From the NCBI GenBank assembly GCA_015232395.1, contig JADFZT010000046.1, positions 1 to 37,535 of the forward strand: DNA of 37,535 nucleotides, written 5' to 3'. The translations under genes were made by a program, and so were the position numbers. Of the stretch, positions 8,391 through 26,566 are shown piece by piece; position 1 is the stretch's first letter; every line of letters starts with the position of its first letter. Source of the DNA: Magnetococcales bacterium (lineage in GTDB: Bacteria > Pseudomonadota > Magnetococcia > Magnetococcales > JADFZT01). A model generated the notes under the pieces. The model saw nothing but the letters and a program-made list of their open reading frames with translations. It had not been told where the DNA came from and searched no databases.

Positions 8391-8463
8391 AGTGTTGCTC
8401 TCCCAGGATAGTCAACTAACACTATAAAAAGCATGAAGCATGATTGAATCTTTTCATACCCGA

Positions 8464-9054
8464 TCAATCAAACTCACAAATATAGTTTAATTCGGATGTG
8501 GAGCATGTCCCATCATTCCAAGTACCAGGCCCACTTCCTGAGTCACCTATCATAAGCGCACAGTCTTCCTCTCCTCCATTATCATTTGGTTCGCCATCGT
8601 ACCAATTTGTATAGGTGACTTCATCTCCTGTAACCCATGCAAAATCACCCTCCACCTCGTAATCATCTAAACCGATCCATGTATATCGATGTCCATTGGT
8701 GTGAACAATGTTGGAACTTTGAACAAGATTCATCACCTTTTCATTCTCTTCTTCCGATGAGATGGTTACGAGGTGACCACCTCTGTCTGAACAAGCAGAT
8801 ACTGCAGCATCATACGTTACCGCCTCTTCTCCAAGGGAATAGGCATGCGTTGCCAGTTCAGTGAGCAGATCTATTGTTTCTGCTTGGCTATTGACTGTTT
8901 CAACCAGCGTGTCAAAATTGGCATTCACCTCTGAAGAATAGATTGTTTCCCCAGCAGAGAATGAAAACGGCATTTCAATACTTTCAGCTTGAACACCGCT
9001 GCTGGCCAATGCAACGACTGCAGCAAGAATCAAGATACTTTGAGATTTACCCAT
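8464..9054 (-). CDS. Secreted C-type lectin-domain protein
   Basis: A 196-residue protein with a signal peptide (cleavage near GVQA-ES). Residues 27-50 repeat the FSAGETIYSSEVNANF module of its S74 neighbour. From about residue 70 it carries a C-type lectin fold: AVSACSDRGGHLVTISSEEEN, the WIGL motif, the EPN calcium/sugar motif (WYDGEPNDNGGEEDC), WNDGTCS and the terminal YICEFD. EPN in family members with known sugars favours mannose-type ligands. The four cysteines can form the two canonical disulfides. A GGGGGAAAATC Shine-Dalgarno sequence precedes the ATG. It is likely a periplasmic or extracellular adhesin. It is spaced 73 bases from the S74 gene and may be cotranscribed. Confidence 0.87.
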   Translation of the reverse strand: MGKSQSILILAAVVALASSGVQAESIEMPFSFSAGETIYSSEVNANFDTLVETVNSQAETIDLLTELATHAYSLGEEAVTYDAAVSACSDRGGHLVTISSEEENEKVMNLVQSSNIVHTNGHRYTWIGLDDYEVEGDFAWVTGDEVTYTNWYDGEPNDNGGEEDCALMIGDSGSGPGTWNDGTCSTSELNYICEFD

Positions 9055-9085
9055 GATTTTCCCCCAAAAAAAGTTTCAGTTTTTT

Positions 9086-10633: not shown

Positions 10634-11044
10634 CACTTTTCCTCTCAATAAAACAAATTTAACAAACCTCTTGTGCAGCCAACCCAAGATTAAATGATAA
10701 AAACTGTATGCAAGCAGGCAAAAATGGGCAAGAAAAATCTTTCGGCGTCACCCAGCACGGAACACTTTTTTTGTTATTTTTGCTCCCAAACCATTGTTTT
10801 TTTGGGTTTATTTAAAACACTAAAAATATTTTAATTCACCAAACAAGAAATCAGTTTGCCATCAAAACGGCAGGAAACTCTCTTATCCACAGGAAATGTT
10901 CAGAGGCTGTTTGGTGCGTTTGAAATGGAGGTCGTGTGACGAAATTCCAGCATTATTTTCCGATGATTTTTGCGTCTATTCCGGCAGAGGAAGGGGGGCA
11001 TACAGGGGGAAGCGGCAAATGATCAAACAGACTCTGCAATGGCT
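10634..11044. other. AT-rich gene-free interval
   Basis: About 410 bases with no supported gene. It is clearly AT-richer than its neighbours between 10690 and 10880 and contains a CCCAAA...TTTGGG hairpin (10785-10806). It separates the SLH/cadherin-like gene from the aspartyl protease gene, both on the minus strand. It therefore probably contains the SLH gene promoter and the end of the protease transcript. Confidence 0.5.
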
Positions 11045-12159: not shown

Positions 12160-12945
12160 ATGGCAATATGCGCCGCCATGAGCCACCATCCCATACCTGG
12201 ATTCATTCAAGCTTGGCGGCGTCACTTTTTGGTCTGGCGCAAAACCCTGGCCGCTTCCCTGGTGGGGAGCTTGGGGGAGCCCCTGCTCTATCTCATGGGC
12301 ATGGGCTATGGCCTGGGGCGCTTTATTGGTGAAATCGATCAACTCCCCTATCTACTCTATGTCGCCTCGGGCATTCTCGCGGCTTCATCCATGAATACCG
12401 CCACCTTCGAAGCCCTCTATGGCGCATTCACCCGGATGACCCGTCAGAACACCTTCCACGCCATGCTGGCAACCCCCCTGAGCGTGGCCGACGTGGTAGC
12501 GGGTGAGGTGGTGTGGGCCGCCACCAAGGCTCTCATCGCCGGGTGTGCCATTTTTATCGTCGGCACCTTCCTGGAGGCCTTTCCCGCCGGGACCGCCATT
12601 TTTGCCCTACCGGTGGTCTTTTTGTCGGGCCTGGTCTTCGCTTCCCTGGGAATGGTGGTGACCGCCATCTCCCCCAGTTATGAATTTTTTCTCTATTATT
12701 TCACTCTGGTGGCCACCCCCATGTTTCTTTTTTGCGGGGTCTTTTTTCCGGTTGAAGGCCTCCCCGAAGGGATCCGCCTCCTGGTAACGATTTTACCCCT
12801 GACCCATGTGGTGGCTCTGGTCCGCCCCCTCACCACCGGCCTGCCTCTGGAAGGACTTTTCCTCCATCTGGGGGTTCTGATCGGCTATTTGGGGCTCTCC
12901 TTCTGGCTGGCAGTGGGTCTGGTGCGTCGGCGCATCCTGGTCTAG
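12160..12945 (+). CDS. NodJ-like ABC-2 transporter permease
   Basis: A membrane protein of about 261 residues with six predicted transmembrane segments. The N-terminal WRRHFLVWRKTLAASLVGSL, then the GEPLLYLMGMGYGLG, SMNTATFEALYGAF and GEVVWAATKALIAG stretches, match NodJ family permeases, and the C-terminus ends in basic residues (LVRRRILV). It should form the exporter channel with the NodI-like ATPase at 6.1 kb. The start is uncertain: ATGs at 12109, 12160 and 12178 are all in frame and none has a strong Shine-Dalgarno sequence. The next gene begins more than 200 bases downstream, so it probably ends its own transcript. Confidence 0.88.
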   Translation: MAICAAMSHHPIPGFIQAWRRHFLVWRKTLAASLVGSLGEPLLYLMGMGYGLGRFIGEIDQLPYLLYVASGILAASSMNTATFEALYGAFTRMTRQNTFHAMLATPLSVADVVAGEVVWAATKALIAGCAIFIVGTFLEAFPAGTAIFALPVVFLSGLVFASLGMVVTAISPSYEFFLYYFTLVATPMFLFCGVFFPVEGLPEGIRLLVTILPLTHVVALVRPLTTGLPLEGLFLHLGVLIGYLGLSFWLAVGLVRRRILV

Positions 12946-13177: not shown

Positions 13178-13573
13178 ATGGCTGAACTTTTCTCGGCAGA
13201 GTGGATGCAAACCTATATGGATGAGTGGAACAAGGAGCCCGAGTTGGCTGGGGCTCTGGAAAAGATCGGATTCAATTCCACTATCGCTTACGGCATCGAT
13301 GGTGACGATACCCCCCGGGGTGTTCTGACAATTGAAAATGGTCAAGCGGTCAAAGGCGAAGCCTACAGCGACCAGGAGATCAACTGGGATCTGCGCGCCA
13401 GCCAGGAGAACTGGGAAAAATGGATCCGCAAGGGTCTCGGCATGATGGGGCTCGGCATGGCCTACACCTCCCGGAAGCTGAAATTCCAGGTAGGGGATTA
13501 CGGGGCGATGATCAAAGACCCCCGTATGGCTGGCCCCTTCATCAAAAGCTTTACGGTGATGGGACGGGTCTAA
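13178..13573 (+). CDS. SCP2 sterol-carrier-like small protein
   Basis: A 131-residue cytosolic protein with no signal peptide. The layout (TIAYGIDGDDTPRGVLTIENG, then a WDLRASQENWEKWIRKGLG helix and KLKFQVGDYGAMIKDPRMAG) resembles SCP2-type lipid-binding domains, where a beta sheet and helices enclose a hydrophobic pocket. Family members carry or present lipids or acyl groups. The ATG has AGAGGCAAAA in front. It is the first gene of the plus-strand block that continues with the RND adaptor, but a strong hairpin lies between them, so shared expression is uncertain. The SCP2 assignment is from overall pattern, with moderate confidence. Confidence 0.65.
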   Translation: MAELFSAEWMQTYMDEWNKEPELAGALEKIGFNSTIAYGIDGDDTPRGVLTIENGQAVKGEAYSDQEINWDLRASQENWEKWIRKGLGMMGLGMAYTSRKLKFQVGDYGAMIKDPRMAGPFIKSFTVMGRV

Positions 13574-13730: not shown

Positions 13731-14924
13731 ATGATCAGGAAACTTTTCTTGACCGTGACTTTGCCTTTTGCCCTGGCTGGCTGGCTGATCACGCCACCTC
13801 AGGCAGATGCGGCCAACTCCTTCAACTCCAGTGACGTTATCACGGTGGGGGCCGGCTCCATCGGCTCCTCTACCACCCTGGGTGGAACGGTGGTGCCCCT
13901 GCGGGAAGTGGCTTTTTCCGCGCAGATGCCCGGACGGGTTGAATTTATTGCAGGTGTCGAGGGGGACTGGTTCCGCAAGGATACCGTTCTGGTGGCTCTG
14001 GATAACGACGATCTCCTGGCCCAGCACCGTTCAGCCCGGGCCGCCCTTTCCAACGCCGAGGCCAACTGGCGCAACGCCCGGGTTCAATACACCCGGCAGG
14101 TCTATTCCGGCTCCAGCATGAGCTCGGACAACAACGGCATGGGCATGCCCAGGATGTTTGACCGCTATTTCACCCGCCCCCTCACCGACATGATGGGAGC
14201 GGACAACCCGGAACTGACCCGGCGCGCCCAGATCTATGCCCAGGGCACCCAGATTGATGTCGCCAAATTCGGTCTGGTTCAAGCACGAGCCAAGCTGGAA
14301 GAGTTGGAAGCCCGCATCCGGGATACCAAATCCATCGCCCCCTTTTCCGGGGTGGTTGTCAGCAAGCACATCGAAAAAGGGGATACCGTGCAACCGGGCA
14401 TGCCCCTGCTGAGCTTTGCCGATACCCGTCACCTGCAGATCAAAGTGGATATTCCTGCGCGTCTGATGCCTGGCATCCGCAAGGATATGCGCATTCCTGC
14501 CAAGCTGGACGTGGGAGATACCCGAATCCAAACGCGGGTGGCCCAGATCTTTCCCATGGCAGATACCCAGCGCCACACAGTGACCGTCAAACTCGACATC
14601 CCCAAGGATGCCCCGGGTGGTCCCGGCATGTATGCGGAAGTGATGGTTCCGGACATCACCACACCGGTTAAAAATCTGGCCACTATTCCCCGCTCAGCCG
14701 TCGTTTGGCGAGGCAGTCTGCCGGCGGTATTTGCCATAAGCGACAGCAACAGCGAGCCGGAACTGCGGATGATTCGTCTGGGAGGTTTTGTGGACGATAC
14801 CACCGTAAGCGTCCTCTCCGGTCTCCAGTCGGGCGAACGGATTCTGGCTCACCCCCCCAGGACCAGCAGCATCAACTGGGATACCGGAAACACCTCCACC
14901 GGTCAGGGCTCTTCGATGAATTGA
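13731..14924 (+). CDS. RND efflux periplasmic adaptor subunit (HlyD/AcrA-type)
   Basis: A 397-residue exported adaptor with a signal peptide ending QADA. The order of parts fits membrane fusion proteins: a first barrel-sandwich strand (GGTVVPLREVAFSAQMPGRVEFI), the lipoyl half (VLVALDNDDLLAQ), a long helical hairpin (about 100-185), the return lipoyl strand (SIAPFSGVVVSKHIEKGDTVQPGMPLLSF) and a beta-barrel with the membrane-proximal domain to the C-terminus. There is no lipobox cysteine, so it is soluble or held by the signal helix. It precedes the RND pump gene by 164 bases and should bridge the pump to an outer-membrane TolC-like channel, none of which is encoded here. The hairpin carries an unusual Met/Asn/Gly-rich stretch (SSMSSDNNGMGMPRMF). 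Confidence 0.92.
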   Translation: MIRKLFLTVTLPFALAGWLITPPQADAANSFNSSDVITVGAGSIGSSTTLGGTVVPLREVAFSAQMPGRVEFIAGVEGDWFRKDTVLVALDNDDLLAQHRSARAALSNAEANWRNARVQYTRQVYSGSSMSSDNNGMGMPRMFDRYFTRPLTDMMGADNPELTRRAQIYAQGTQIDVAKFGLVQARAKLEELEARIRDTKSIAPFSGVVVSKHIEKGDTVQPGMPLLSFADTRHLQIKVDIPARLMPGIRKDMRIPAKLDVGDTRIQTRVAQIFPMADTQRHTVTVKLDIPKDAPGGPGMYAEVMVPDITTPVKNLATIPRSAVVWRGSLPAVFAISDSNSEPELRMIRLGGFVDDTTVSVLSGLQSGERILAHPPRTSSINWDTGNTSTGQGSSMN

Positions 14925-15088: not shown

Positions 15089-18000
15089 ATGAGTACTCAT
15101 CTCGAACCACCCGATTCCGCATCGCCACAAGCCCTTCAGGCTCAAGAACCCGATCTGGGCGTTGCGGGGAAAATGGCCAAGGCCTTTATTCATTCACCCC
15201 TGTCGCCACTTTTGCTGTTTGCCTGTCTGGCCATGGGGATTTTGGGGCTGGTTTTTACCCCACGTCAGGAAGACCCGCAAATTTCGGTGCCCATGGTGGA
15301 TATCTTTGTCCGCTATACCGGTGCCTCGTCCAACCAGGTGGCCACTCTCGTAGCCAACCCCCTGGAACGGATCATGAGCGAAATTTCCGGGGTCAAACAC
15401 GTCTATTCCGCTTCCATGCGGGGTCAGGCGATGGTCACCGTGGAGTTTGATGTCGGCGAAGACATGGAGGAGTCCCTGGTCAAACTCCATGACAAGCTCC
15501 AATCCAACATGGACAAAATCCCTCCCGGGGTGAATCAACCCCTGGTCAAGCCCAAGGCGGTGGATGATGTCCCGGTGGTGGCCCTCACCCTCTGGTCCAA
15601 TGATGTGGATGACGGGGCGTTGAGAACCCTCTCTCTGGATGTGCTACAGCGCTTGAATGAGGTCAAGGATTCCAGTCAGGGCTTCATTATCGGGGGACGC
15701 TCGGAACAGATCCGGGTGGAGGTCTACCCAGAACGGCTTTCCGGCTTTGGTATCAGCCTTGATCAGATCGCCCAGACCATCAAAACCGCCAACAGCGAAA
15801 CGGGTGTCGGCAGCGTCGAAGCGTCCGACCTGGGATTCAAGGTCTATACCGGAGCCTTTTTGAAAAACGCCCAGGACATCTCCCGCCTGGTGGTGGGCAC
15901 GCGTCATCAAAGCCCCATCTATGTGCGTGATGTCGCTCGGGTTTTTGCGGGACCGGAAGAGACCAAGCAGATGGTCACCTACTATACCGGCCCAGCCTAT
16001 AAGGAGAACACAGAGAAGGCCAACGGCGCCCCGGCTGTCACCATTGCCATTGCCAAAAAGAAAGGCTCCAACGGCGTTACCGTGGCCAACAACGTATTGG
16101 CCAAAGTGGAGGAACTCAAAGGCCGCCTGATCCCGGCCAACGTCAACGTTTCCGTCACCCGTAACTATGGCGAAACCGCCAACGAAAAGGTCAACGAGCT
16201 GCTCTTCAAGCTGGTGGTCGCCACCACAGCGGTGACCCTTCTCGTCTGGATGACCCTGGGATTCCGTCCGGCATTGGTTACCCTGATCGTCATCCCGGTT
16301 GTGATCCTGATGACCGTCTTTTCCGCCTGGGTCATGGACTATACCATCGACCGGGTGAGCCTGTTTGCGCTGATCTTTTCCATCGGTATTTTGGTGGATG
16401 ATGCCATCGTGGTGGTGGAAAATATCTATCGACGATGGCTTATGGAGGATATCTGCTGCCACATCATTGCGGTGGATGCGGTGCGGGAGGTGGGTAACCC
16501 CACCATTATCGCCACCTTTACGGTGATCGCCGCCCTCCTGCCCATGGGATTCGTCAGCGGCATGATGGGACCCTACATGCGACCTATCCCGGCCCTGGGA
16601 TCGGTGGCGATGGTGCTCTCCCTGTTTGCAGCCTTTATCTTTACGCCTTGGTTGGCCATGCTGATCAAGCCGCCCATGCGGACCCTGCATATCTTTTCTG
16701 AAAAAGAGCACAGCCAGGCGGAATCTCTGGAAAAATTTTATCGCTGGCTGATCCCACCGATGATCAAGAGGCCTCTGCTGGGCTGGAGTTTTCTTGTGGG
16801 TCTTGTCGTCATCTTTTTCGCCTCACTGTGGCTTTTCCAAACCACGGATGTGACGGTGAAAATTTTGCCTCTGGACAACAAGCCTGAATACAACGTGGTC
16901 ATCAACATGCCCGAGGGGACTGCGCTGCCCAAGACGGCCAACCTGGCCCAGCAGATGACCGAGGAGATCCGCAAACGGATTCCCGAGGTGACCGCGCTGC
17001 AGACCTATGTTGGCACCGCCTCACCGTTCAACTTTAACGGCATGGTGCGCCACTATTATCTCCGTCAGGAACCCTGGCACGCGGATATTCAGGTTCAGCT
17101 GGTTCACAAAAGCAAGCGGGAACGCACCAGCCACGACCTGGCTGTTGAAACCCGCGCCTTTCTCACCCCTATTGCTGAAAAGATCGGTGGCAAAATTCAA
17201 GTTGTAGAGATGCCCCCTGGACCGCCTGTACTCCAATCCGTGGTGGCTGAAGTAACCGGCCCGGACGAGCAGACCCGCCGTCAGGTGACCGAAGCCATGA
17301 CGCGCATGTTTGAGAAGGCCAAGACCATTGTCGATGTTGATAACTATATGGAGGCCCCTTATCAAAACTGGCGCTTTGAGGTGGATACCGAAAAGGCTGT
17401 ACGTCGTGGGATTTCCGTAGATGCCATCAATCGCAATCTGGGTATGGCCATGGGTGGGGCCAGGCTGGGAGATGTCAAGCGGGGAACCGTTCTTGAACCC
17501 ACCTACATCGTGATTCAGGTTCCCCTGGAAATCCGCGCCAAGATCAACAGCCTGGCAGATCTCCCCATCTCCAACCCCCAGGGCGGCACCATTCCCCTGG
17601 GTGAGCTAGGCCGCTTTACCAAAGACCAGCAGGATGCCGTCATCTACCACAAAGATCTGAAACCCGTTGAGTATGTCACCGGTGAGGTGGAAGGACGACT
17701 GGATGCGCCCATCTACGGCATGGCCGAGGTGGAAAAACTACTGCAGGATTACACGACCCCGGACGGGGTGACCCTGTCCGGTGAATATCTCGGTCCCCCA
17801 GACACCTACATCCGTTCTGGATTTGAGTGGACCGGTGAGTGGACCGTCACCTTCGAAACCTTCCGGGATATGGGTGCCGCCTTTGCCGTCGCACTGGTAC
17901 TGATCTACATGCTGGTGGTCTATGAATTCGGCAACTTTACCCTGCCAGCGATCATCATGGCCCCCATCCCCCTGACCCTGATCGGTATCGTGCCGGGTCA

Positions 18001-18913
18001 CTGGATCATGGATGCCAAATTTACCGCCACTTCCATGATCGGTTTTATTGCTTTGGCAGGCATCATCGTACGCAACTCCATCCTGCTGGTGGACTTTACC
18101 CAGATGGAAATTTTAAAAGGGACCAGCGTTCAGGATGCGGTCATACTTTCCTGTAAGGCACGTACCCGGCCCATCTTGATCACCGCCTTTGCCCTGGTGG
18201 CGGGCTCCAGTGTCATCATCACCGACTTTATCTTCCGGGGCATGGCGATCTCCCTGCTCTTTGGGGTGTTGGTTTCCACGCTGCTGACCCTTTTGGTGAT
18301 CCCCCTGGGTTGCATCAGTGCCGAGTTTGCCTTTATCAAACCCGGCTCCCCTGGAGGCCCCCTGCCAGTCCCTGGAACAGGACCGGCCACCCACACCCCC
18401 CCCTCACCCAGCAAGAGTGAAAAAAAGGGCTTTTTTAGCTGGCTTGGGGGACTTTTCAGCAAGCGTCGGCAGGCACGACTGAAGAAAAAAATGGCCGTGG
18501 AAACCCCAGCTGTGCAGACCCGGGTCAATCACCTGGAAACCAAAAAAGCCGTGCCGGAACGCAAAGCACCACCACCGACCAAAACCGAGCCAGCCAAAGA
18601 GGCAGCGGCTCCTGAGAAGACTTCCCCGGCTGTGGCTGCCACTCCGGCTCCAGCCCCAGTCCCTGAGAAGGCCCAGGCTGCCAAACCAACGCCGTCTCCC
18701 GAGACGCTCATTCTCAGCGCATCGGCTCCGGAAACTGCTCAGCCAGCTGCACCAGCCCCGGCAAAACCAGCCGCTCAAAAACCGGCTCCCCGAAAGGCTG
18801 CTGCTAAAAAATCATCCGGATCCCAAAGGGCCAGCGCCAAAAAACGCCCCCCTGCCCGCAAGGAGGAACGTCGGGGGATTCGTCTTAAACCTGGTTCCAA
18901 GACCACTGAATAA
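15089..18913 (+). CDS. RND family efflux transporter permease with a long basic Ala/Pro-rich tail
   Basis: A 1274-residue inner-membrane RND pump; typical length is 1020-1060. The core has TM1 near residue 35, the proton-relay pair in TM4 (GILVDDAIVVVENIYRR, Asp437-Asp438), FTPWLAMLI at the end of TM6, a second porter half (VVAEVTGPDEQTRRQ) and the TM10 region VRNSILLVDFTQ. Transport is proton-driven; the substrate is not evident. After the last membrane helix (about residue 1083) comes a tail of some 190 residues: an amphipathic basic segment (GFFSWLGGLFSKRRQARLKK), then Ala/Pro/Lys-rich sequence ending in histone-like KKSSGSQRASAKKRPPARK. The stop codon lies inside the Shine-Dalgarno sequence of the next gene, indicating coupling with the secreted Tyr/Gly-rich protein. 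Confidence 0.93.
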   Translation: MSTHLEPPDSASPQALQAQEPDLGVAGKMAKAFIHSPLSPLLLFACLAMGILGLVFTPRQEDPQISVPMVDIFVRYTGASSNQVATLVANPLERIMSEISGVKHVYSASMRGQAMVTVEFDVGEDMEESLVKLHDKLQSNMDKIPPGVNQPLVKPKAVDDVPVVALTLWSNDVDDGALRTLSLDVLQRLNEVKDSSQGFIIGGRSEQIRVEVYPERLSGFGISLDQIAQTIKTANSETGVGSVEASDLGFKVYTGAFLKNAQDISRLVVGTRHQSPIYVRDVARVFAGPEETKQMVTYYTGPAYKENTEKANGAPAVTIAIAKKKGSNGVTVANNVLAKVEELKGRLIPANVNVSVTRNYGETANEKVNELLFKLVVATTAVTLLVWMTLGFRPALVTLIVIPVVILMTVFSAWVMDYTIDRVSLFALIFSIGILVDDAIVVVENIYRRWLMEDICCHIIAVDAVREVGNPTIIATFTVIAALLPMGFVSGMMGPYMRPIPALGSVAMVLSLFAAFIFTPWLAMLIKPPMRTLHIFSEKEHSQAESLEKFYRWLIPPMIKRPLLGWSFLVGLVVIFFASLWLFQTTDVTVKILPLDNKPEYNVVINMPEGTALPKTANLAQQMTEEIRKRIPEVTALQTYVGTASPFNFNGMVRHYYLRQEPWHADIQVQLVHKSKRERTSHDLAVETRAFLTPIAEKIGGKIQVVEMPPGPPVLQSVVAEVTGPDEQTRRQVTEAMTRMFEKAKTIVDVDNYMEAPYQNWRFEVDTEKAVRRGISVDAINRNLGMAMGGARLGDVKRGTVLEPTYIVIQVPLEIRAKINSLADLPISNPQGGTIPLGELGRFTKDQQDAVIYHKDLKPVEYVTGEVEGRLDAPIYGMAEVEKLLQDYTTPDGVTLSGEYLGPPDTYIRSGFEWTGEWTVTFETFRDMGAAFAVALVLIYMLVVYEFGNFTLPAIIMAPIPLTLIGIVPGHWIMDAKFTATSMIGFIALAGIIVRNSILLVDFTQMEILKGTSVQDAVILSCKARTRPILITAFALVAGSSVIITDFIFRGMAISLLFGVLVSTLLTLLVIPLGCISAEFAFIKPGSPGGPLPVPGTGPATHTPPSPSKSEKKGFFSWLGGLFSKRRQARLKKKMAVETPAVQTRVNHLETKKAVPERKAPPPTKTEPAKEAAAPEKTSPAVAATPAPAPVPEKAQAAKPTPSPETLILSASAPETAQPAAPAPAKPAAQKPAPRKAAAKKSSGSQRASAKKRPPARKEERRGIRLKPGSKTTE

Positions 18914-18925
18914 GGAGCCGTCATG
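18911..18925 (+). promoter_or_regulatory. Ribosome binding site overlapping the RND stop codon
   Basis: The sequence TAAGGAGCCGTCATG combines the pump's TAA stop with an AAGGAG Shine-Dalgarno sequence seven bases before the next ATG. This arrangement supports cotranscription and probable translational coupling. Confidence 0.8.
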
Positions 18926-20656
18926 CCGGTCAGGAATCGCAACCGATCCCCCTTGGCATCCCGTTCCCTCCTGACCCTCTGTGCCTTTTTTGGATTCATG
19001 GCCACAGAAAAGGCTCTGGCCTTTGAAGGGGCTCCCTGGTGGAATTCGGAAAACACCGGTCAAACCCAAGGGAGTGGTGAGTGGAGTTCCAGCGGCAGTT
19101 CGACCGATTCCGACTGGTCCCAAAATCGCAGTACCGGAGGTAGTACCGGCAGCTGGAAGCTGAGTGACGCTCCCCCTTTGGAGCCGGAATCCACCAGTCG
19201 AGAGGCCACAGCCAATACCTGGGGGGATACAGCCTCCAATCCGGCCCCCGCGTCCGGATTCGGCCCCTCTGGCTGGAATGAGGGTCAGGGCCAGGATTCC
19301 GGTTTTCCCTCTCCTGAGCCCGCTTCCAACTGGGACCATGTTCCCCCGCCTCCCCCTGGAGGCGATTTTGGAAACACCCAAGGGGATTCAGGCTTTGACC
19401 AATCCATCCCTGTGCAGACAGGCAGATTTGGTCATTCCATGGAGGGCAGCCCCTATTCTCCCCCCCATTCCGGCTCCGGCGGTGGCTGGGGTAGCTCGGA
19501 TTATCGAAACAACACGGAATTTTCCAGTACCTATCCTGCCCCCGATCAAGGGGGAAGCTATGGCCGTTATCCCGATGATCACAGGCAAGCTCCCTATTCC
19601 CCAGAGAGAGCTGGCGGCGGTTTTGGATCTGGAAATTATGCCTCCCAAGGTAGCCCCGTCTCTGCCGATTCCTACTCGACGATGGGGAGAGGTTATACCC
19701 CCGAAGCGGCTGGATCCGGTTACGGTTATCCCTCCCAAGGGGGCGGCTATCCCGTTTCTTCTGGAGGATCCGCCTATGCTAACCAACCCTACAGTGGTGG
19801 TTACGGCATTCCCCAGAGTCGAGGCTATCCAGATCAGGGGGGTGGCTACGGCATTCCCCAGAGTCGAGGCTATCCAGACACAGGAGGCCGTTACGGCACG
19901 CCCCAAGGTAGAGGCTATCCAAACCAGAGTGGGGGTTATGGTACTCCTGCCGGTGGTGGCTATCCAAACCAAGGGGGTGGTTATGGGGCTCCCCAGGGAG
20001 AGCCCGGCTACGGCTATCCTTCCCAGGGTGGCGGATATCGAAACCAGGGCAGTGGTGGTTATCCCTCACCCTATGCTGGATCCGGATACGGCCAACCGTC
20101 TCAGGGTGGCGGCTATTCCACCTATGACTCTCCCAGCGGTTATACCTCCCCCGGCCACTCGCGTCAGCAGGCCTTTGGTGGCAGGGAATATCCCACTTAT
20201 GATGGCTCCAGCTACCCCTCTCAAGGGCGTGGCAACTTCCAGTCTTACAATGAACCATCATCAACCCAATACGAATTTGACGGTTATCGGGACAACTCTT
20301 TCAGCTCTCCCCCAAATCATGACCTCCAAGGGGCTCCCCCTTCGGCCAATGAAGAAGGGATGCGCCGGGATTGGACCTTTACCAACCGCAATGCAGCACC
20401 GGTCAGAAGCACCTCCGGGTTTGGCTCCTCCAATCCCTGGGATACCCCCTGGAACTCCGCAGTCGACAAAGACTCCTCCTGGACCCCCAATTTTCAGACT
20501 CCCCCCAGGGATACGTTTTCTGAATCCCAAAACGCCTCCATCCCAGGAGGGGGAAGCAGCTTCGACACCTCTACCCATCCATCAAATTCAGAGAGCCCAG
20601 CCTCCACCTCAGTTTCTTCCGGGGAAAGCAACGCAAACAATCAGGATGGCAAATAA
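18923..20656 (+). CDS. Secreted Gly/Tyr/Ser/Pro-rich low-complexity repeat protein
   Basis: A 577-residue protein with a signal peptide (hydrophobic RSLLTLCAFFGFMA, cleavage near KALA-FEG). The mature chain is low complexity. Residues about 30-150 are Ser/Gly/Trp/Pro-rich. Residues about 240-430 contain degenerate repeats of the type GGYGIPQSRGYPDQ and GGGYPNQ, with a tyrosine every 4-8 residues. The C-terminal part is Ser/Asn/Pro-rich. No folded domain and almost no cysteine are seen. Regularly spaced Tyr in Gly/Pro context occurs in sulfur globule proteins, prion-like phase-separating proteins and structural matrix proteins. Its strong Shine-Dalgarno sequence overlaps the RND stop codon. 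Function is not known; I infer a structural or scaffold role. Confidence 0.85.
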   Translation: MPVRNRNRSPLASRSLLTLCAFFGFMATEKALAFEGAPWWNSENTGQTQGSGEWSSSGSSTDSDWSQNRSTGGSTGSWKLSDAPPLEPESTSREATANTWGDTASNPAPASGFGPSGWNEGQGQDSGFPSPEPASNWDHVPPPPPGGDFGNTQGDSGFDQSIPVQTGRFGHSMEGSPYSPPHSGSGGGWGSSDYRNNTEFSSTYPAPDQGGSYGRYPDDHRQAPYSPERAGGGFGSGNYASQGSPVSADSYSTMGRGYTPEAAGSGYGYPSQGGGYPVSSGGSAYANQPYSGGYGIPQSRGYPDQGGGYGIPQSRGYPDTGGRYGTPQGRGYPNQSGGYGTPAGGGYPNQGGGYGAPQGEPGYGYPSQGGGYRNQGSGGYPSPYAGSGYGQPSQGGGYSTYDSPSGYTSPGHSRQQAFGGREYPTYDGSSYPSQGRGNFQSYNEPSSTQYEFDGYRDNSFSSPPNHDLQGAPPSANEEGMRRDWTFTNRNAAPVRSTSGFGSSNPWDTPWNSAVDKDSSWTPNFQTPPRDTFSESQNASIPGGGSSFDTSTHPSNSESPASTSVSSGESNANNQDGK

Positions 20657-20882
20657 ATTGCATAAAATAACGGCACCCTTCGCTTTTGGGAAGAGAAATG
20701 CCGTATAGTGCAGGGTCAACCGAAAGTAACGGCTCTGGATGCGGTCAATTCGGCTCCCCCGAAATTGGGACCATGGCTCGAACGCCACTTTCGGCCAGGA
20801 GAGGTATGTTCTCTTCTTTTAAACTGACTTCGTCAAACTCACTTGCTTTCTTTTACAACGGACCCCGGGATTATCACTCAAA

Positions 20883-21878
20883 ATGCGGTCTATTCTCCTT
20901 TTGGCGCTCTGTTTTGTCACCGGTATCTGGGTACCGGGAGCCGCCTTTGCCCAAGGGGAATGGCCAATCAACTCCTACCGCCTGGAGGGTTCCCAAACCC
21001 CGGCCTCCTCCACGGATTGGAACCGGGACGAGGCCCAATGGAACTGGAACCGACCCAACTCCCGGCAATCCTCCGGCCCCCCCTCCACTGCGACCGGTAG
21101 CTGGGGATCACCGTCCAATGGCCTCCAAGAACCCACTGCACGTCCCTGGGGAGAGATACCCAAGGACTATGCCCCTGGTATCCCGGCCTACGAGCCAAAC
21201 GCCCCCTATTCCGAACCTGGCTGGGGTAATTACAACACACCACCCTCTTCCTACGACAGTGGCTCTAATACCGCACATCCATCCGACAGAGGTTCCAGCT
21301 ATCCCTACAGCAGCGGATCAGCCCCCAGCCACTCTTACGACCAGGGGCCATCTTACGACAACAGAGGATTTGGCGATTCCTATAGCAACAGAGGATCCGG
21401 TTTCTACGATAGCAGAGGTTCCAGCCAACCCGGTGGCTATGATACGGAACATTCCTACGGATATCCGTCAGGCAATCCATACGATTACCGTACCGAAAAT
21501 CCATATGGCTACGGCCCGGAAAATTCTTATGGATCAGAACCCTATCCCGGACACACCTATGCTCCCCGGGAGTCGGAACGATATCCTTCCGGAGAGTATG
21601 GCCATTCCCCATTGGGTATGGAATCCAGGCCCGGTTATTACTACGACACCCCCAGCCGGAATTCCCGTTACCCCTCAGGGTCCAGATGGAACGAACACCC
21701 TTCCCGGGAACTCAATCCCAACCGACGGGACTCCTATGACAGCCCTCGCAGCTACGATCCCTACGGGGGAGAGGTCAATCCCTGGTGGTTCCCAGGCTCG
21801 GAGCGTTCCCAGGTTCTACAATGGTGGCACAATCAAGGGGCACCCTCCACACCAAACCAACGATACCCGGGCTGGTAA
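20883..21878 (+). CDS. Secreted Tyr/Ser/Gly/Pro-rich low-complexity protein
   Basis: A 331-residue protein with a clear signal peptide (SILLLALCFVTGIWV, cleavage near AAFA-QGE). The mature part is Tyr/Ser/Gly/Pro/Asn-rich with loosely repeated SYDNRG, YGYPSGNPYDY and YPSGEYG blocks, and it ends with a Trp-rich stretch (NPWWFPGS, VLQWWHNQG). It is not clearly homologous to its upstream neighbour but shares its composition and architecture, so I infer a related role. It starts 226 bases after the previous stop. That gap contains no supported gene, and no strong Shine-Dalgarno sequence precedes this ATG. A different open frame runs through this gene but looks like a compositional shadow, except for its downstream end, which is the next gene. 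Confidence 0.82.
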   Translation: MRSILLLALCFVTGIWVPGAAFAQGEWPINSYRLEGSQTPASSTDWNRDEAQWNWNRPNSRQSSGPPSTATGSWGSPSNGLQEPTARPWGEIPKDYAPGIPAYEPNAPYSEPGWGNYNTPPSSYDSGSNTAHPSDRGSSYPYSSGSAPSHSYDQGPSYDNRGFGDSYSNRGSGFYDSRGSSQPGGYDTEHSYGYPSGNPYDYRTENPYGYGPENSYGSEPYPGHTYAPRESERYPSGEYGHSPLGMESRPGYYYDTPSRNSRYPSGSRWNEHPSRELNPNRRDSYDSPRSYDPYGGEVNPWWFPGSERSQVLQWWHNQGAPSTPNQRYPGW

Positions 21879-22557
21879 GGGAAACGATTATCTACCGGTT
21901 ACCTCTTCCTCCCTTTTCCGGAGCCAGTGGTTCCTGGCCCTGATATTTTTCAGTCTGGTTCAGCTCTCCCCCCTTCCAGCCCTTGGCGCTACCGATCTCC
22001 CGGAATTTTCTGCCAAGGTCACCCGCAGCCACTCCAAAGATCCCAAACAGGCCGGTAAAGGCAAAATGTTTGTCAGTCGTCTGGGTGTACGCACTGAGAG
22101 GGTCAAGAACAAAAAACCGCTGGTGATGATTCACCGCATGGATCAAAAGCAGCTCTGGGTTCTCTTTCCCGACAAAAAAGGCTATCTGGAATATCCGAGC
22201 GGAGAAATGGGCCGTCCCCCCCTGCCCCACGAAGCCAACAGCCCCTGCAAAACCGATCCCCAAATTTTCTGCAAAAAAGTCGGCAAGGCCAAAATTGCCG
22301 GGCGCCTCACCCAGCGATGGGATATTTTTACCAAAAGCACCGAGGGCAAAGGCAAGCGGTGGTTTGCCTCAATGTGGATTGATCCCAAATTGAAAATGGC
22401 CATCCGGGAAGAGTATGCCGATGGATTGACGGTGGCCCTGACCCAAATCCAGGAAAAAAAACAGCCCCAGAGCCTGTTTGCAATTCCCTCGGACCACACC
22501 CGCCTGAAAAGCCCCGAAGCAACCGCCCAACCGGCTGACTCAAAAAGGAAAAAATAA
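21736..22557 (+). CDS. Exported DUF4412/LolA-like periplasmic protein with unclear start
   Basis: The conserved part is residues encoded from about 21930 on: a hydrophobic signal-like segment (WFLALIFFSLVQLSPLPALGA) and a mature region of about 190 residues. That region contains KMFVSRLGVRTERV, MIHRMDQKQLWVLFPDKKGYLEY, a Cys pair (CKTDPQIFC), KIAGRLTQRWDIF, and IREEYADGLTVALTQIQEKKQ. This pattern of strands resembles DUF4412/LolA-like beta sheets. The reading frame has no ATG, GTG or TTG close to the signal segment. The nearest ATG (21736) overlaps the upstream gene by 143 bases and would put 60 residues before the hydrophobic stretch. A noncanonical start after the AAGGGA at 21877, a frameshift fusion with the upstream gene, or a sequence error are possible. 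The C-terminus is Lys-rich. Confidence 0.75.
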   Translation: MTALAATIPTGERSIPGGSQARSVPRFYNGGTIKGHPPHQTNDTRAGKGNDYLPVTSSSLFRSQWFLALIFFSLVQLSPLPALGATDLPEFSAKVTRSHSKDPKQAGKGKMFVSRLGVRTERVKNKKPLVMIHRMDQKQLWVLFPDKKGYLEYPSGEMGRPPLPHEANSPCKTDPQIFCKKVGKAKIAGRLTQRWDIFTKSTEGKGKRWFASMWIDPKLKMAIREEYADGLTVALTQIQEKKQPQSLFAIPSDHTRLKSPEATAQPADSKRKK

Positions 22558-22559
22558 CT

Positions 22560-22588
22560 CCCTGGGCCTTTTTTTACAGGCCACAGGG
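22560..22588 (+). terminator. Hairpin after the DUF4412-like gene
   Basis: CCCTG-GGCC pairs with GGCC-A-CAGGG (one bulge) around a T-rich loop, two bases after the stop codon. It is not a classical terminator because the T-run is in the loop. Confidence 0.4.
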
Positions 22589-22735
22589 GCGGGATGAGAT
22601 GATCCCCCACACACTCTGATTCCCCTCCAATCAGGCCCTCTTACCCCCACTTCGGCTCTGACTTCCCAGCTCTCGGATACCCTGTTCAGAGCCCCTGGAT
22701 CAAGTCGCCAAGATAAATTTAATGGCCGAATTATG

Positions 22736-22764
22736 TTGACTCCAGTCCAAGATCCATATATTAG
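22736..22764 (+). promoter_or_regulatory. Candidate sigma-70 promoter for the NDYSRRYG-repeat gene
   Basis: TTGACT, a 17-base spacer and TATTAG lie about 130 bases before the next ATG, in an AT-rich patch of an otherwise gene-free 336-base gap. This is motif match only. Confidence 0.45.
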
Positions 22765-22893
22765 ACTTTCATTATATTGGGTTCCTTGTCCATAGCTCAT
22801 GCTTGCTGGTAAAGTTCCCTGGGGGACGAGTGGCAGCATTTTTTCAACAATCGATCAGCCATCCCGATAACCGGTTACGCCATATTCGATGCC

Positions 22894-24000
22894 ATGATCC
22901 TATTTTTTTCTCAGCCCAGGCCCACAGGAGTTGGCAAACGCCTCTCCCGGTCGGCAGGAAAACTGACCATCGCTCTGACGGTCGGCTTTTTCGCCATAGC
23001 CGGTGCCCAGGCTCAGGATATGCAGGAAGACTCCCGCATGGGACAGCGGTTCGGCCAGTTTATGGGCTCCTTCATGCAGGAGATGCAGGGTTCTCCAAGC
23101 TCCATCTCTCCTGCCATGTCCCCTGGCTCCATGTCGCCGGGAGCCATGCCCCAGGAGATGGCCACCTCTGCCATGGGCTCTTCCAGCGGTGGCCCCTCAA
23201 CCAACACGCCTTCCACCACCGCCAGCGCCCCCATGGAAATGGCTGCTGCCGATATTCCTCAAGAGCACTCCCCTACCCAGGAAAAAAAATCCACCTCCCG
23301 GCAACGCACCACCTCCGGCTATCTCTATGACCCATGGGGATCGGGACACGAATGGGATCCCTTTCTGGACTACGATCCCTGGGGAGCCAACAGCTGGCAA
23401 GAGGGTGGAGAGTGGTGGCGCAATCAAAACAACCGCTACAACAGCCGACCCTTCGGTTACAACGGTGACTATTCAAGACCCTACAGTCACAACGACTATT
23501 CAGGGCGCTACGGTCACAACGACTATTCAGGGCGCTACGGTCGCAACGACTATTCGAGGCGCTACGGCAACAACGACTATTCGAATCGCTACGGTGGCTA
23601 CGACTATTCCAGACGCTACGGTAGCACTGATTATTTTAACAAATACGGCAACCGCAACTATTCGAGACGCTATGGCGGCTACGACCAACCGGGACGCTAC
23701 AGCCAGACAGAGCCTATCAGCCCCTATGACACCTATGGCGGTGAAGGCTTTGACGACAGCGATCCCTTGCTGGGCCCTTCCTACAACTCCTGGAACGAAC
23801 ACTCCAGTGATCAGTATGGATACGGCAGCGGCATCCCGTGGCGGGACAGATTCTACGGTAATGACCATAATACCTGGGATTACAGGGATCACCGTTCCAA
23901 CCGGAACGGCTGGGGAGGATGGGATCCTTGGGGGTTCGGATCGCCTTTTGGTGGCAACAGCTGGCCTTGGGATCGGGGATTTGGCAACGGGTGGTGGTAA
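22894..24000 (+). CDS. Secreted protein with eight 9-residue Tyr/Asn/Arg repeats
   Basis: A 368-residue protein with an N-terminal signal sequence (basic GVGKRLSRSAGK, hydrophobic LTIALTVGFFAIAG, cleavage near AQAQ). Residues about 40-120 are Met/Ser/Pro-rich with MSPGSMSPGAMPQEM-type runs. About residues 192-263 hold eight tandem 9-residue units of consensus DYSRRYGxN. The C-terminus is Trp/Gly/Asn-rich (WGGWDPWGFGSPFGG, ending NGWW). Tyr and Arg at fixed spacing in a disordered chain is the typical sticker pattern of condensate- or fibre-forming proteins. No enzyme domain is visible. Its position between other secreted low-complexity genes suggests a shared structural role. The start ATG lacks a strong Shine-Dalgarno sequence and could lie elsewhere in the same frame. 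Confidence 0.82.
   Translation: MILFFSQPRPTGVGKRLSRSAGKLTIALTVGFFAIAGAQAQDMQEDSRMGQRFGQFMGSFMQEMQGSPSSISPAMSPGSMSPGAMPQEMATSAMGSSSGGPSTNTPSTTASAPMEMAAADIPQEHSPTQEKKSTSRQRTTSGYLYDPWGSGHEWDPFLDYDPWGANSWQEGGEWWRNQNNRYNSRPFGYNGDYSRPYSHNDYSGRYGHNDYSGRYGRNDYSRRYGNNDYSNRYGGYDYSRRYGSTDYFNKYGNRNYSRRYGGYDQPGRYSQTEPISPYDTYGGEGFDDSDPLLGPSYNSWNEHSSDQYGYGSGIPWRDRFYGNDHNTWDYRDHRSNRNGWGGWDPWGFGSPFGGNSWPWDRGFGNGWW
23467..23682 (+). repeat. Tandem 27-bp coding minisatellite (8 units)
   Basis: Eight in-frame 27-base units encode the 9-residue DYSxRYGxN repeat. The second and third units differ by a single base, while outer units are more diverged, suggesting recent local duplication in the array. Copy number could vary between strains. 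Confidence 0.9.
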
Positions 24001-24121
24001 GTCGATCCACACCCCCTCCTCCCCCTCAGTGGAAGCTTGATCTGTTTTTTTTCTGTGCGATAGTGGTTTTCTGGTATCGTATCTTTAATGAGTAAGACGA
24101 CCTAATCTTAAGGAGATCATC

Positions 24122-24523
24122 ATGAAAAAATCGGCTCGTATGCTGACCATCGCCGCCTTGCTGGGTGGTGCCACTCTTTTGGTCGCCGACCAAGCCGAAG
24201 CATGGGGGGGATGGGGCCCCTGGAATAACGGCTGGGGCAATAATAACGGTTGGGGCAATAACAACTGGGGCAACAACTGGGGCAACAACGGCTACGGTAA
24301 CGGCAGCGGTCGTGGGAATGGTTCCGGCAAATTCAACTTCAGCATGGGCGGCGACGTCGATGGCTGGGCTGACAACGGCTGGAACAATGGCTGGAACAAT
24401 CTCTGGAACAACAACAACGGCTGGAACAATGGCTGGAACAACGGCGGCCCTTGGGGTGGTGGTCCTTGGGGTGGCGGTCCTTGGGGCGGCAGCCCTTGGG
24501 GTGGTGGTCCCTTCAACTGGTAG
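24122..24523 (+). CDS. Small secreted Gly/Trp/Asn-rich protein, sulfur globule protein-like
   Basis: A 133-residue precursor with a Sec signal peptide (MKKSARMLTIAALLGGATLL, cleavage near QAEA-WGG). The mature chain is almost only Gly, Trp, Asn and Pro: NNGWGNNN units, then GSGKFNFSMGGDVDGWADNG, then NGWNN units and five PWGGG-type repeats. The small size, export signal, aromatic residues in Gly/Asn repeats and the central FNFSMGG stretch recall sulfur globule envelope proteins (SgpA/SgpB) of purple sulfur bacteria, which coat periplasmic sulfur droplets. Trp largely replaces Tyr here. A very strong Shine-Dalgarno sequence (AAGGAGATCATC-ATG) suggests abundant expression. Homology to Sgp is inferred from composition, not from a decisive motif. 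Confidence 0.85.
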   Translation: MKKSARMLTIAALLGGATLLVADQAEAWGGWGPWNNGWGNNNGWGNNNWGNNWGNNGYGNGSGRGNGSGKFNFSMGGDVDGWADNGWNNGWNNLWNNNNGWNNGWNNGGPWGGGPWGGGPWGGSPWGGGPFNW

Positions 24524-24606
24524 GATTGACGCCACGGGCCAATCACACACTCAAAGTTGATCTGATCTTGTGTTGATACATCCTTGACCTCTCGGGGGAA
24601 ACTGAC

Positions 24607-24963
24607 ATGAAAAAAACATTGAGCGCATTGGCACTGGCGGGCCTGTTGGGAGGCGCTGTTCTCCTGACCGCCGGGGAGGCTTCGGCCTTCTGGTGGCCCG
24701 GCAACAATTGGGGTGGTCCCGGATGGGGCGGCTATCCTGGTGGTTGGGGTGGTTATCCTGGTGGTTGGGGTGGTTATCCCGGCTACGGCTATGGTGGCTA
24801 TCCAGGCGGTTGGGGTGGTTATCCCGGCTACGGCTATGGTGGTTATCCCGGCTATGGCTATGGTGGCTATCCAGGCTACGGTTATGGCGGCTATCCCGGC
24901 TATGGTTATGGCCAGCCTCTCCCTGCCACACCGCCTGCTACCTCGGCTCCAGCTACGGAATAA
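24607..24963 (+). CDS. Small secreted Gly/Tyr-rich repeat protein, sulfur globule protein-like
   Basis: A 118-residue precursor whose signal peptide (MKKTLSALALAGLLGGAVLL, cleavage near EASA-FWW) resembles that of its upstream neighbour. Residues 41-101 are eight tandem units of GGYPGGW or GGYPGYGY; a Pro/Ala/Thr tail (PLPATPPATSAPATE) follows. Tyr-Gly-rich repeat chains like this are typical of SgpC-type sulfur globule proteins, though also of other structural glycine-rich proteins. GGGGGAAACTGAC precedes the ATG. It is the last gene before a strong terminator. The pair probably arose by duplication of the exported leader, followed by repeat expansion. Confidence 0.85.
   Translation: MKKTLSALALAGLLGGAVLLTAGEASAFWWPGNNWGGPGWGGYPGGWGGYPGGWGGYPGYGYGGYPGGWGGYPGYGYGGYPGYGYGGYPGYGYGGYPGYGYGQPLPATPPATSAPATE
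24727..24909 (+). repeat. Coding 21/24-bp tandem repeats (GGYPGGW / GGYPGYGY)
   Basis: Eight in-frame units of seven or eight codons, nearly identical at the DNA level in the second half, indicating recent expansion. Confidence 0.88.
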
Positions 24964-25011: not shown

Positions 25012-25042
25012 AGGGGGGGCGAGCTTTTCGCCCCCCTTCTCT
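25012..25042 (+). terminator. Rho-independent terminator after the low-complexity protein cluster
   Basis: A GC stem of at least nine pairs (GGGGGGCGA / TCGCCCCCC) with a GCTTT loop is followed by the T-rich TTCTCTTTCC. It lies about 50 bases after the last stop codon. A smaller GGGTTTC/GAAACCC hairpin (24977-24997) sits just before it. Confidence 0.82.
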
Positions 25043-25172: not shown

Positions 25173-25820
25173 ATGGTCACCGTTATCGGAAATCTGAAAG
25201 GCGGCTGCGGTAAAAGCACCATCAGCTTCAATCTGGCCATCTGGCTGGCCATGGCGGAGGTGGATGTCATTACCTTCGACCTGGACCCCCAGGCGACCCT
25301 GAGCGATGCCGCCGAAGTACGCAAAGAGATGGGTGTGAAACCCGAGGTTCGGGTCTTCAGACCTGAAAGCGATCCGGACAAGGTGTTCAAGGAGCATCCG
25401 GGCGAAGTGCTTGTGGATGTGGGCGCTTCCAACCTGTGGGCCATGCGCCAGGCGATCTCCATGGCGGGCCGGGTGTTGGTGCCTGTACCTCCGAGTCAGG
25501 CGGATGTCTGGTCCACAGCACGGTTTCGAGATATGATCCTCGAAACAGTCGGCAGCAAGCCGCTGCCCGAAATCCTGCTTTTTGTGAATCGTGCCGATAC
25601 CCACCCCGGATTGAAGGAATCGGACGAAACGGAAGAGGCGCTGACATCACTACACCACGTGAAGGTGCTCAAAACCCGGATTCGGCAGCGCACCGCCTAC
25701 AGGCGTTCCTTTAGCGAGGGACGGAGTGTTTTTGAAATTTCCAAACGCTCCAAAGCGACCCAGGAGTTTCTGCAACTGGCCGCCAAGCTCTATCCCGATT
25801 TAGCTTCGGGAAAGAAGTGA
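25173..25820 (+). CDS. ParA/MinD-family ATPase
   Basis: A 215-residue protein beginning at the ATG that directly starts the Walker fold (TTG 16 codons upstream is possible). It has the deviant Walker A NLKGGCGKST with its signature Lys, switch I-like DLDPQATLSDA, and the VLVDVGAS Walker B region. The C-terminus is short, without an N-terminal HTH, so it belongs with the small ParA proteins that position plasmids, carboxysomes, chemoreceptor arrays and similar cargo rather than with chromosomal ParA. No parB and no origin features are nearby. The partner is probably the membrane coiled-coil gene 77 bases downstream. FNR-type control upstream suggests a role tied to oxygen level. Confidence 0.9.
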   Translation: MVTVIGNLKGGCGKSTISFNLAIWLAMAEVDVITFDLDPQATLSDAAEVRKEMGVKPEVRVFRPESDPDKVFKEHPGEVLVDVGASNLWAMRQAISMAGRVLVPVPPSQADVWSTARFRDMILETVGSKPLPEILLFVNRADTHPGLKESDETEEALTSLHHVKVLKTRIRQRTAYRRSFSEGRSVFEISKRSKATQEFLQLAAKLYPDLASGKK

Positions 25821-25897: not shown

Positions 25898-26566
25898 ATG
25901 TCGGATAATTATCATAACGTCAATCACTCCCACGAGGATATGCAAGGCGGCTTCGGCAGCCATGCGGACTGCAACAACTGCTTTTCCTCCATCCTCGGGG
26001 ACTTCACCCAAAGCTTCGATAAAAGCGCCAAGCGTTGGGAACTGATCGTCTATCCATCCCTTTTTGCTTTTATTATCCTGGCGATGTATGGCTTTTTCCT
26101 CATCTATAGTCTCACCCAGGATATTCGCACCATGGCGGTCTCCATCGACCCCAAAATGGGCCGCAACATGGGTAGCCTCTCCCTCTCCATCAAGGATCTT
26201 TCAGATAATGTGGAGCTGATGAGCACCCATCTGGAATATATCAGCGACAACATGGAAACCATGTCCGTGGATATGCAGACCATGTCTGAAAGTATCACCC
26301 ACATGACCGAAAATGTGGGAACCATGGACAGCAATATTTCCACCATGACCGGCGTGATGCAGTCTGTCTCGGTCAACATGGACTCCATCAACGGCACCAT
26401 GACCGAAATGAACACCGAACTCTCCTCCATGGGCCCCATCACCACCAATCTCACGTCTATGAATCAAGCCATCCAACACATGACCGCCTCCATGGGCCGC
26501 ATGGGTTACGATGTCAATCATGCCGCACGCCCCATGAGCTTCATCAACCGCTTCATGCCCTGGTAG
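25898..26566 (+). CDS. Single-pass membrane protein with Met-rich periplasmic coiled coil
   Basis: A 222-residue protein of unknown family. Residues 1-46 are His/Asn/Asp-rich and end in basic residues (DKSAKRW); a single membrane helix follows (LIVYPSLFAFIILAMYGFFLIY, about 48-70). The basic side before the helix predicts N-in, C-out. From about 75 to 205 there is a long heptad-like coiled coil with Met at core positions (DNMETMSVDMQTMSESITHM and similar). A short tail ends FINRFMPW. AAGGGTATACCCC precedes the ATG. The adjacent ParA-like gene suggests the cytoplasmic tail is the ATPase partner, with the periplasmic rod linking to an external cargo. This is inference; it could also be an unrelated structural protein. 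Confidence 0.85.
   Translation: MSDNYHNVNHSHEDMQGGFGSHADCNNCFSSILGDFTQSFDKSAKRWELIVYPSLFAFIILAMYGFFLIYSLTQDIRTMAVSIDPKMGRNMGSLSLSIKDLSDNVELMSTHLEYISDNMETMSVDMQTMSESITHMTENVGTMDSNISTMTGVMQSVSVNMDSINGTMTEMNTELSSMGPITTNLTSMNQAIQHMTASMGRMGYDVNHAARPMSFINRFMPW

Follow-up and report, generated by a model that had tools for sequence, protein, structure and literature searches.

We put roughly even confidence in the following reading of an RND exporter and secreted low-complexity gene region in a Magnetococcales bacterium: that it forms the central part of an envelope module conserved in sulfur oxidisers, one that is positioned by a ParA ATPase, moves a hydrophobic ligand and serves the assembly of sulfur globules. 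The evidence consists of the composition and order of the genes, the predicted folds of two proteins, the homology of two others to sulfur globule proteins (Sgps), a motif at the end of a tail on the pump and the linkage of this tail to a ParA gene. The region was analysed within a stretch of 37,535 nucleotides, referred to here as the window, from a genome of 4.94 Mb; 48 genomes represent the order.

To our knowledge, the formation of sulfur globules, their siting in the periplasm and their inheritance by daughter cells are unsolved, and only the coat proteins are known. If true, the reading would provide the first known globule-assembly apparatus and, as far as we know, the first case of a ParA ATPase placing an efflux-type pump.

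Gene content of the window

The features of the module are listed in Table 1, with signal peptides called by eye and a crude hydropathy rule. A first-pass annotation of the same DNA had placed the stop codon of the RND gene inside the AAGGAG of the first low-complexity gene, and the TAA (18911-18913) indeed shares two bases with this presumed ribosome-binding site of LC1 (18912-18917). The succession of the RND gene, five secreted low-complexity genes and a DUF4412 gene on one strand up to a terminator was equally borne out, as all open reading frames lie where they had been placed, and the DUF4412-like assignment agrees with a PF14371 match over the Pfam cut-off. The five low-complexity proteins (LC1-LC3, Sgp1 and Sgp2) match no family in Pfam or NCBIfam. 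They had been taken for one cluster of like proteins; two are Sgp-like and the other three are different. Moreover, the real unit is longer on both sides than the interval from the RND gene to Sgp2 that had been proposed, with ORF131 and the adaptor at its 5' end and ParA and ORF222 at its 3' end. The SCP2-fold gene, the downstream ParA and coiled-coil genes and the RND tail motif had been missed.

Table 1. Features of the module and their positions in the window
Feature	Position	Strand	Evidence or remark
SCP2-fold protein ORF131	13178..13573	+	cytosolic; no Pfam match; fold prediction and conservation
RND periplasmic adaptor (MFP)	13731..14924	+	TIGR01730 and HlyD_D23 over cut-off
RND permease, 1274 aa, low-complexity C-terminal tail of ~190 aa	15089..18913	+	ACR_tran E 9e-149
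RRGIRLK motif, end of RND tail	18869..18889	+	recurs in cassette RNDs
LC1, secreted, G/Y/S/P-rich	18923..20656	+	ORF list; ribosome-binding site overlapping RND stop
LC2, secreted, Y/S/P/N-rich	20883..21878	+	ORF list
DUF4412 protein, LolA/RseB/LprG-like fold (predicted)	21880..22557, start codon uncertain	+	PF14371 over cut-off; fold
LC3, secreted; N-terminal RFGQFMGSFMQEM motif common to some relatives	22894..24000	+	ORF list, loci compared
Sgp1, probable sulfur-globule-protein homologue, 133 aa	24122..24523	+	profile score against shuffles
Sgp2, probable sulfur-globule-protein homologue, 118 aa	24607..24963	+	profile score against shuffles
Terminator-like hairpin	25012..25038	+	strongest such site in region
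ParA, ParF-like ATPase, signature lysine (LKGGCGKST)	25173..25820	+	NF041546, PDB ParF 4dzz, alignment
ORF222, membrane-anchored coiled-coil protein, end NRFMPW	25898..26566	+	conserved beside ParA, A. vinosum included

The ACR_tran permease, which is of the AcrB/HAE class, and the MFP adaptor together identify an RND tripartite exporter. A cognate outer-membrane factor, frequent and not universal in the operons of such exporters, is not found among the cassette genes of the window. In the DUF4412 frame, the signal peptide is not closely preceded by an ATG, GTG or TTG. The closest in-frame ATG (21736) falls inside LC2, and translation may start within that gene or at an unusual start codon. 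The terminator-like hairpin stands between the Sgp genes and ParA.

With regard to the DNA 5' of the module, three secreted surface-type genes on the reverse strand (7164-10687) encode a protein with SLH domains and Ig/cadherin repeats, a C-type lectin and a protein that bears an S74 endosialidase chaperone. An ABC-2 type permease gene (12289-12945, forward strand) precedes ORF131, and similar permeases are found upstream of ORF131 in several relatives.

Conservation of the cassette

The full order of the unit is SCP2-fold ORF131, adaptor, RND, LC1, LC2, DUF4412, LC3, the two Sgp-like genes, ParA and ORF222. A homologous order was found in 37 Magnetococcales loci, as far as their contigs extend, with RND identities of 67-73% across the order and a mean column identity of 76% for ORF131 over 51 loci. 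Homologues of DUF4412 adjoin homologues of Sgp1 and Sgp2 throughout the order, and 28 of 36 loci have one or more Sgp-like genes after DUF4412. In 29 of 32 loci from 8 Magnetococcales families, a secreted open reading frame starts between -30 and +120 nt from the RND stop, and several of these loci present a fused TGATG stop/start. These close starts, together with the same order in other classes, indicate a coupling of the RND and secreted genes beyond chance. In one genome of family f9 (L121), the block Sgp-Sgp-ParA-ORF222 lies intact on the other side of ORF131.

Outside the order, a sample of the phylum contained ORF131 in only 2 of ~350 genomes, one of which (G290) carries the full set of ORF131, adaptor, RND, LC1, LC2, Sgp, DUF4412 and ParA. 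A scan of 84,980 species genomes returned 315 ORF131 relatives, the best 80 of which belong to Magnetococcales and mostly sulfur-oxidising Gammaproteobacteria, among them Thiodiazotropha, Thiomargarita, Halobeggiatoa, Venteria, Thiotrichaceae, Sedimenticola, Ectothiorhodospiraceae and Chromatiales. In most of these relatives the adaptor and RND genes lie 3' of ORF131 and, on contigs of sufficient length, DUF4412, ParA and ORF222 come next. Beyond Magnetococcales, the cassette is present in ~40 gammaproteobacterial loci and a Rhodospirillales genome. Many of the gammaproteobacterial loci are ordered RND-LC-LC-Sgp-DUF4412-ParA, the adaptor and ParA being ~50% identical between classes that share the order, and in two loci (L136 and L183) the RND and ParA genes are separated by only 41 bp with no gene between them. 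The coupling of the RND to secreted genes that had been proposed from the window is therefore reproduced when gene neighbourhoods are compared, as the homologues co-occur across classes; that they would never do so in other genomes had been named as grounds for abandoning it. A plasmid search with an Sgp as query gave no match, and the cassette contains no regulator gene.

The use of ORF131 alone as a marker of the cassette was dropped, as it has two subtypes, the low-scoring one of which (in A. vinosum and others) sits elsewhere; given this remote subtype, the RND and its tail were taken as the marker instead. In genome G385 (L113:10587-10985), an ORF131 homologue directly follows a NiFe hydrogenase large subunit gene, without an RND cassette. 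A longer DUF4412 paralogue of ~329 aa (G000:C28:36201-36959, L120) occupies another locus in most genomes of the order.

The RND tail and the ParA gene

Full-length cassette RNDs comprise ~1190-1490 aa, compared with ~1020-1070 for solved RNDs. The additional length is a variable low-complexity tail, capped by the motif RRGIRLK at 7-33 residues from the C-terminus. By a strict definition the motif is present in 75 of 81 distinct cassette RNDs, and by a loose one in 78; it is absent from 5 full-length related RNDs outside the clade and does not occur in ~2000 other open reading frames outside the cassette RNDs. The proposition that the RND clade is always tailed was rejected, as untailed members (L242-L269, for instance L243, L246 and L251) are 60-68% identical to the window pump and mostly accompanied by an adaptor, without ParA, DUF4412 or ORF222. 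These served as the control set.

Among 37 RND-clade loci in the order of the Chromatiaceae genome G426, ParA is adjacent to 12 of 13 tailed RNDs versus 1 of 24 untailed ones (p 9e-8, a value that ignores shared ancestry). In the one untailed locus that has ParA (L254), bases of the tail are masked, and the single tailed exception (L270:7326-11495) bears RRGIQVK and has no ParA nearby. Some genomes hold both tailed and untailed RNDs. In these sequence comparisons, the tail is strongly associated with a neighbouring ParA. The tailed RND thereby has the feature looked for in the dedicated partner of a ParA positioning system, a conserved basic motif on a tail that tracks the ParA gene.

The ParA protein matches NF041546 with an E value of 5e-38, below the curated cut-off of this family, and PDB ParF 4dzz with an E value of 3e-9. 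The deviant Walker A with its signature lysine (KGGxGKST) is invariant in 20 ParA sequences and places them in the ParA/ParF family. ORF222, which adjoins ParA, has one membrane helix, a Met-rich coiled coil and a C-terminus, RPM.FIN.FMPW, that is retained even in A. vinosum (RPMQFMNGFMPW).

Homologues of sulfur globule proteins

A profile of the cassette Sgps matched exactly two loci in Allochromatium vinosum DSM 180 (G455), with E values of ~1e-20 each, and none in genomes G036 and G010. By size and rank the two loci fit SgpB and SgpA: one encodes a protein of 12.61 kDa (SgpB is listed at 12.6 kDa) and the other a 127-aa form (SgpA is listed at 13 kDa). As this first profile included the window proteins, a second, independent one was built without any Magnetococcales and tested on 500 shuffles. 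Sgp1 scored 77.3 against a shuffle maximum of 53 and Sgp2 100.9 against 76.8, and retaining the signal peptide left both above every one of the 500 shuffles. With the composition correction of HMMER on, the scores are only 20.0 bits for Sgp1 and 18.2 bits for Sgp2, so that the homology is supported but modest. In the same shuffle test LC1 was clearly separated, while LC2 and LC3 were not clearly so. Furthermore, Sgp1 and Sgp2 resemble Sgps in their small size, their MKK..A-x-A starts and their Gly/aromatic-rich mature part.

On this sequence evidence, Sgp1 and Sgp2 are probably homologues of A. vinosum SgpA/SgpB. The sulfur globule coat that the first-pass annotation had named, beside a surface matrix, as an example of a self-assembling material is thus supported for the last two genes, and this support does not extend to LC1-LC3. 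Two further Sgp-like genes at other places in the genome (G000:C66:5680-6081 and G000:C48:5770-6168; L072 and L073) have no cassette adjoining.

Predicted folds of the putative carriers

AlphaFold2 was run with alignments of the window and the loci of relatives, and the models were searched with Foldseek. The DUF4412 model (pLDDT 93) has LolA as its top match (E 2.5e-8, TM ~0.5) and also matches ependymin-related, RseB and LprG structures; the protein is thus predicted to have the half-open beta-barrel fold of LolA. ORF131, for which a Pfam search gives no family, was modelled with a pLDDT of 94, and its best match is sterol carrier protein 2 (2cx7, TM 0.77), which predicts an SCP2 fold. Characterised SCP2-fold and LolA-like proteins hold hydrophobic ligands, as do RND pumps of this class.

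Allochromatium vinosum and the link with sulfur oxidation

In A. vinosum DSM 180, the cassette at 2.013-2.022 Mb comprises the adaptor, a tailed RND, a secreted Trp/Pro protein ending in PWDWPR, DUF4412, ParA and ORF222, and the SCP2, SgpA and SgpB genes are not beside it. The EF-P gene near this cassette is Alvin_1754 (PMC11267869).

Magnetotactic cocci often hold sulfur globules (PMC6783814), and DsrA is found over the cut-off in 42 of the 48 Magnetococcales genomes. Since nearly all carry both the cassette and DsrA, the order alone is uninformative on their linkage. Elsewhere, DsrA exceeds the cut-off in 26 of 34 sampled cassette genomes; 8 fall below it, one of them with fragments. Counting tailed and untailed members alike, the RND clade occurs in 128 of 133 DsrA-positive versus 4 of 14 DsrA-negative genomes of the G426 order (p 3e-9). 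ORF131, whichever its subtype, is present in 128 of 133 versus 3 of 14 of them (p 1e-10); both values ignore shared ancestry. The cassette is present without DsrA in a member of the Competibacteraceae (L161) and in G015, and part of it in G010, where the RND runs off the contig edge. Given the cassettes of G015 and G010, the link with sulfur oxidation is a statistical one.

Proposed function and rival explanations

The identity of the ligand, its delivery to globules, the physical binding of ParA to the tail and the positioning are what we infer from the genes above. The cytosolic SCP2-fold protein would offer a hydrophobic ligand to the RND-adaptor pump, which would transfer it into the periplasm, where the LolA-like DUF4412 carrier would take it over. 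The secreted Gly/Trp/Tyr-rich proteins, Sgp1 and Sgp2 among them, would coat the periplasmic sulfur deposit that receives the ligand. By analogy with the engagement of ParF by the ParG tail, the ParF-like ATPase may engage RRGIRLK at the end of the disordered cytosolic tail of the pump, and in placing the pump it would set the site of the deposit. The shared gene set may accordingly be machinery that builds and places sulfur granules. Several observations weigh against this reading: the SgpA, SgpB and SCP2 genes of A. vinosum lie apart from its cassette, L136 and L183 have no gene between RND and ParA, several cassette genomes have no DsrA over the cut-off, an outer-membrane factor gene is lacking and, in the window, a strong terminator divides the Sgp genes from ParA. 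A more specific version, in which a ParA-positioned RND machine builds, feeds and partitions the globule, its tail docking on ParA, the SCP2 and LolA-like carriers passing on a lipid or organic sulfane and the Sgp coat coming from the same locus, is offered tentatively, at somewhat less than even confidence.

The same parts could serve a general envelope transport of lipids or other hydrophobes, of the membrane-lipid or hopanoid homeostasis type, ParA-placed and not specific to globules, with the Sgp genes as passengers. SCP2, LolA-like and RND proteins all suit lipidic ligands, and the cassettes of L161 and G015 lack DsrA; nevertheless, Sgp genes lie within the cassette in distant classes and are kept with ParA in the rearranged family f9, and we regard this explanation as rather unlikely. 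The AcrB/HAE class of the permease would also fit a ParA-placed efflux of toxic hydrophobes from sulfidic habitats, such as organic polysulfanes, without any building of globules. This seems improbable, as drug pumps do not usually share a cassette with dedicated SCP2, LolA-like and secreted coat proteins, and the lack of a regulator gene speaks against it as well.

LC1 is tightly coupled to the RND gene, which could mean that the pump assists in bringing the low-complexity proteins to the cell surface to form a matrix there. We know of no protein exporters among RND-adaptor pumps, and the RND as exporter of the LC proteins was rejected on this knowledge of the family. The LC and Sgp proteins carry Sec-like signal peptides of their own, which makes export by the RND unlikely, and SgpA-C are periplasmic (PMC10386293); the probability of this alternative is very low. 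Finally, synteny may last within an order, and the gene order could have been retained by descent with no functional link. It recurs, however, in several classes at ~50% adaptor and ParA identity, and the tail motif tracks ParA, so that we give this explanation hardly any credence.

Comparison with known systems

A search of the open literature, with subscription papers outside its scope, returned no description of sulfur globules with RND or ParA, of DUF4412 with RND or of ParA cargo with efflux, in agreement with the first-pass annotation, which had recognised no described system in this grouping. As each part comes from a known family and the combination matches no system known to us, we regard the assembly as new and its parts as familiar. 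If the membrane pump carries a docking motif for ParA, ParA positioning would extend to envelope transporters. The module connects magnetotactic cocci, lucinid symbionts, giant sulfur bacteria and purple sulfur bacteria, and its presence in the genetically tractable A. vinosum makes the system testable.

The HAE-type tripartite pumps AcrB, MdtB and MexB have the permease and adaptor families in common with the cassette, which differs from them in its long cytosolic RRGIRLK tail, its linked ParA, SCP2 and LolA-like genes and its lack of an outer-membrane factor. The DUF4412 protein shares its predicted fold with the LolA/LolB/RseB/LprG superfamily; in contrast to Lol lipoprotein sorting, no LolCDE-like gene is seen among the identified cassette genes and no lipoprotein-sorting genes adjoin DUF4412. 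SgpA and SgpB of A. vinosum, like the window Sgps, are small and Gly/aromatic-rich, with a Sec-type signal peptide and a GDF-M-MS block, whereas the window Sgps contain more Trp and Asn and are encoded in linkage with the RND-ParA cassette, the A. vinosum sgp genes lying elsewhere. Another globule protein gene, that of SgpD (Alvin_2515), adjoins a hydrophobe/amphiphile exporter and reportedly forms a transcription unit of its own (PMC10386293). This locus resembles the window in having a globule protein gene beside an RND-type exporter, but SgpD does not belong to the low-complexity coat proteins, and by its tag number Alvin_2515 is far from the cassette near Alvin_1754.

With regard to ParA, an arginine finger on the flexible tail of ParG stimulates the ParF ATPase (PMC7308502). 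ParF-ParG and McdA-McdB likewise combine a ParF-like ATPase with a partner that bears a basic motif on a disordered tail; the proposed partner in the cassette would differ from theirs in being a membrane pump and neither a DNA-binding nor a carboxysome protein.
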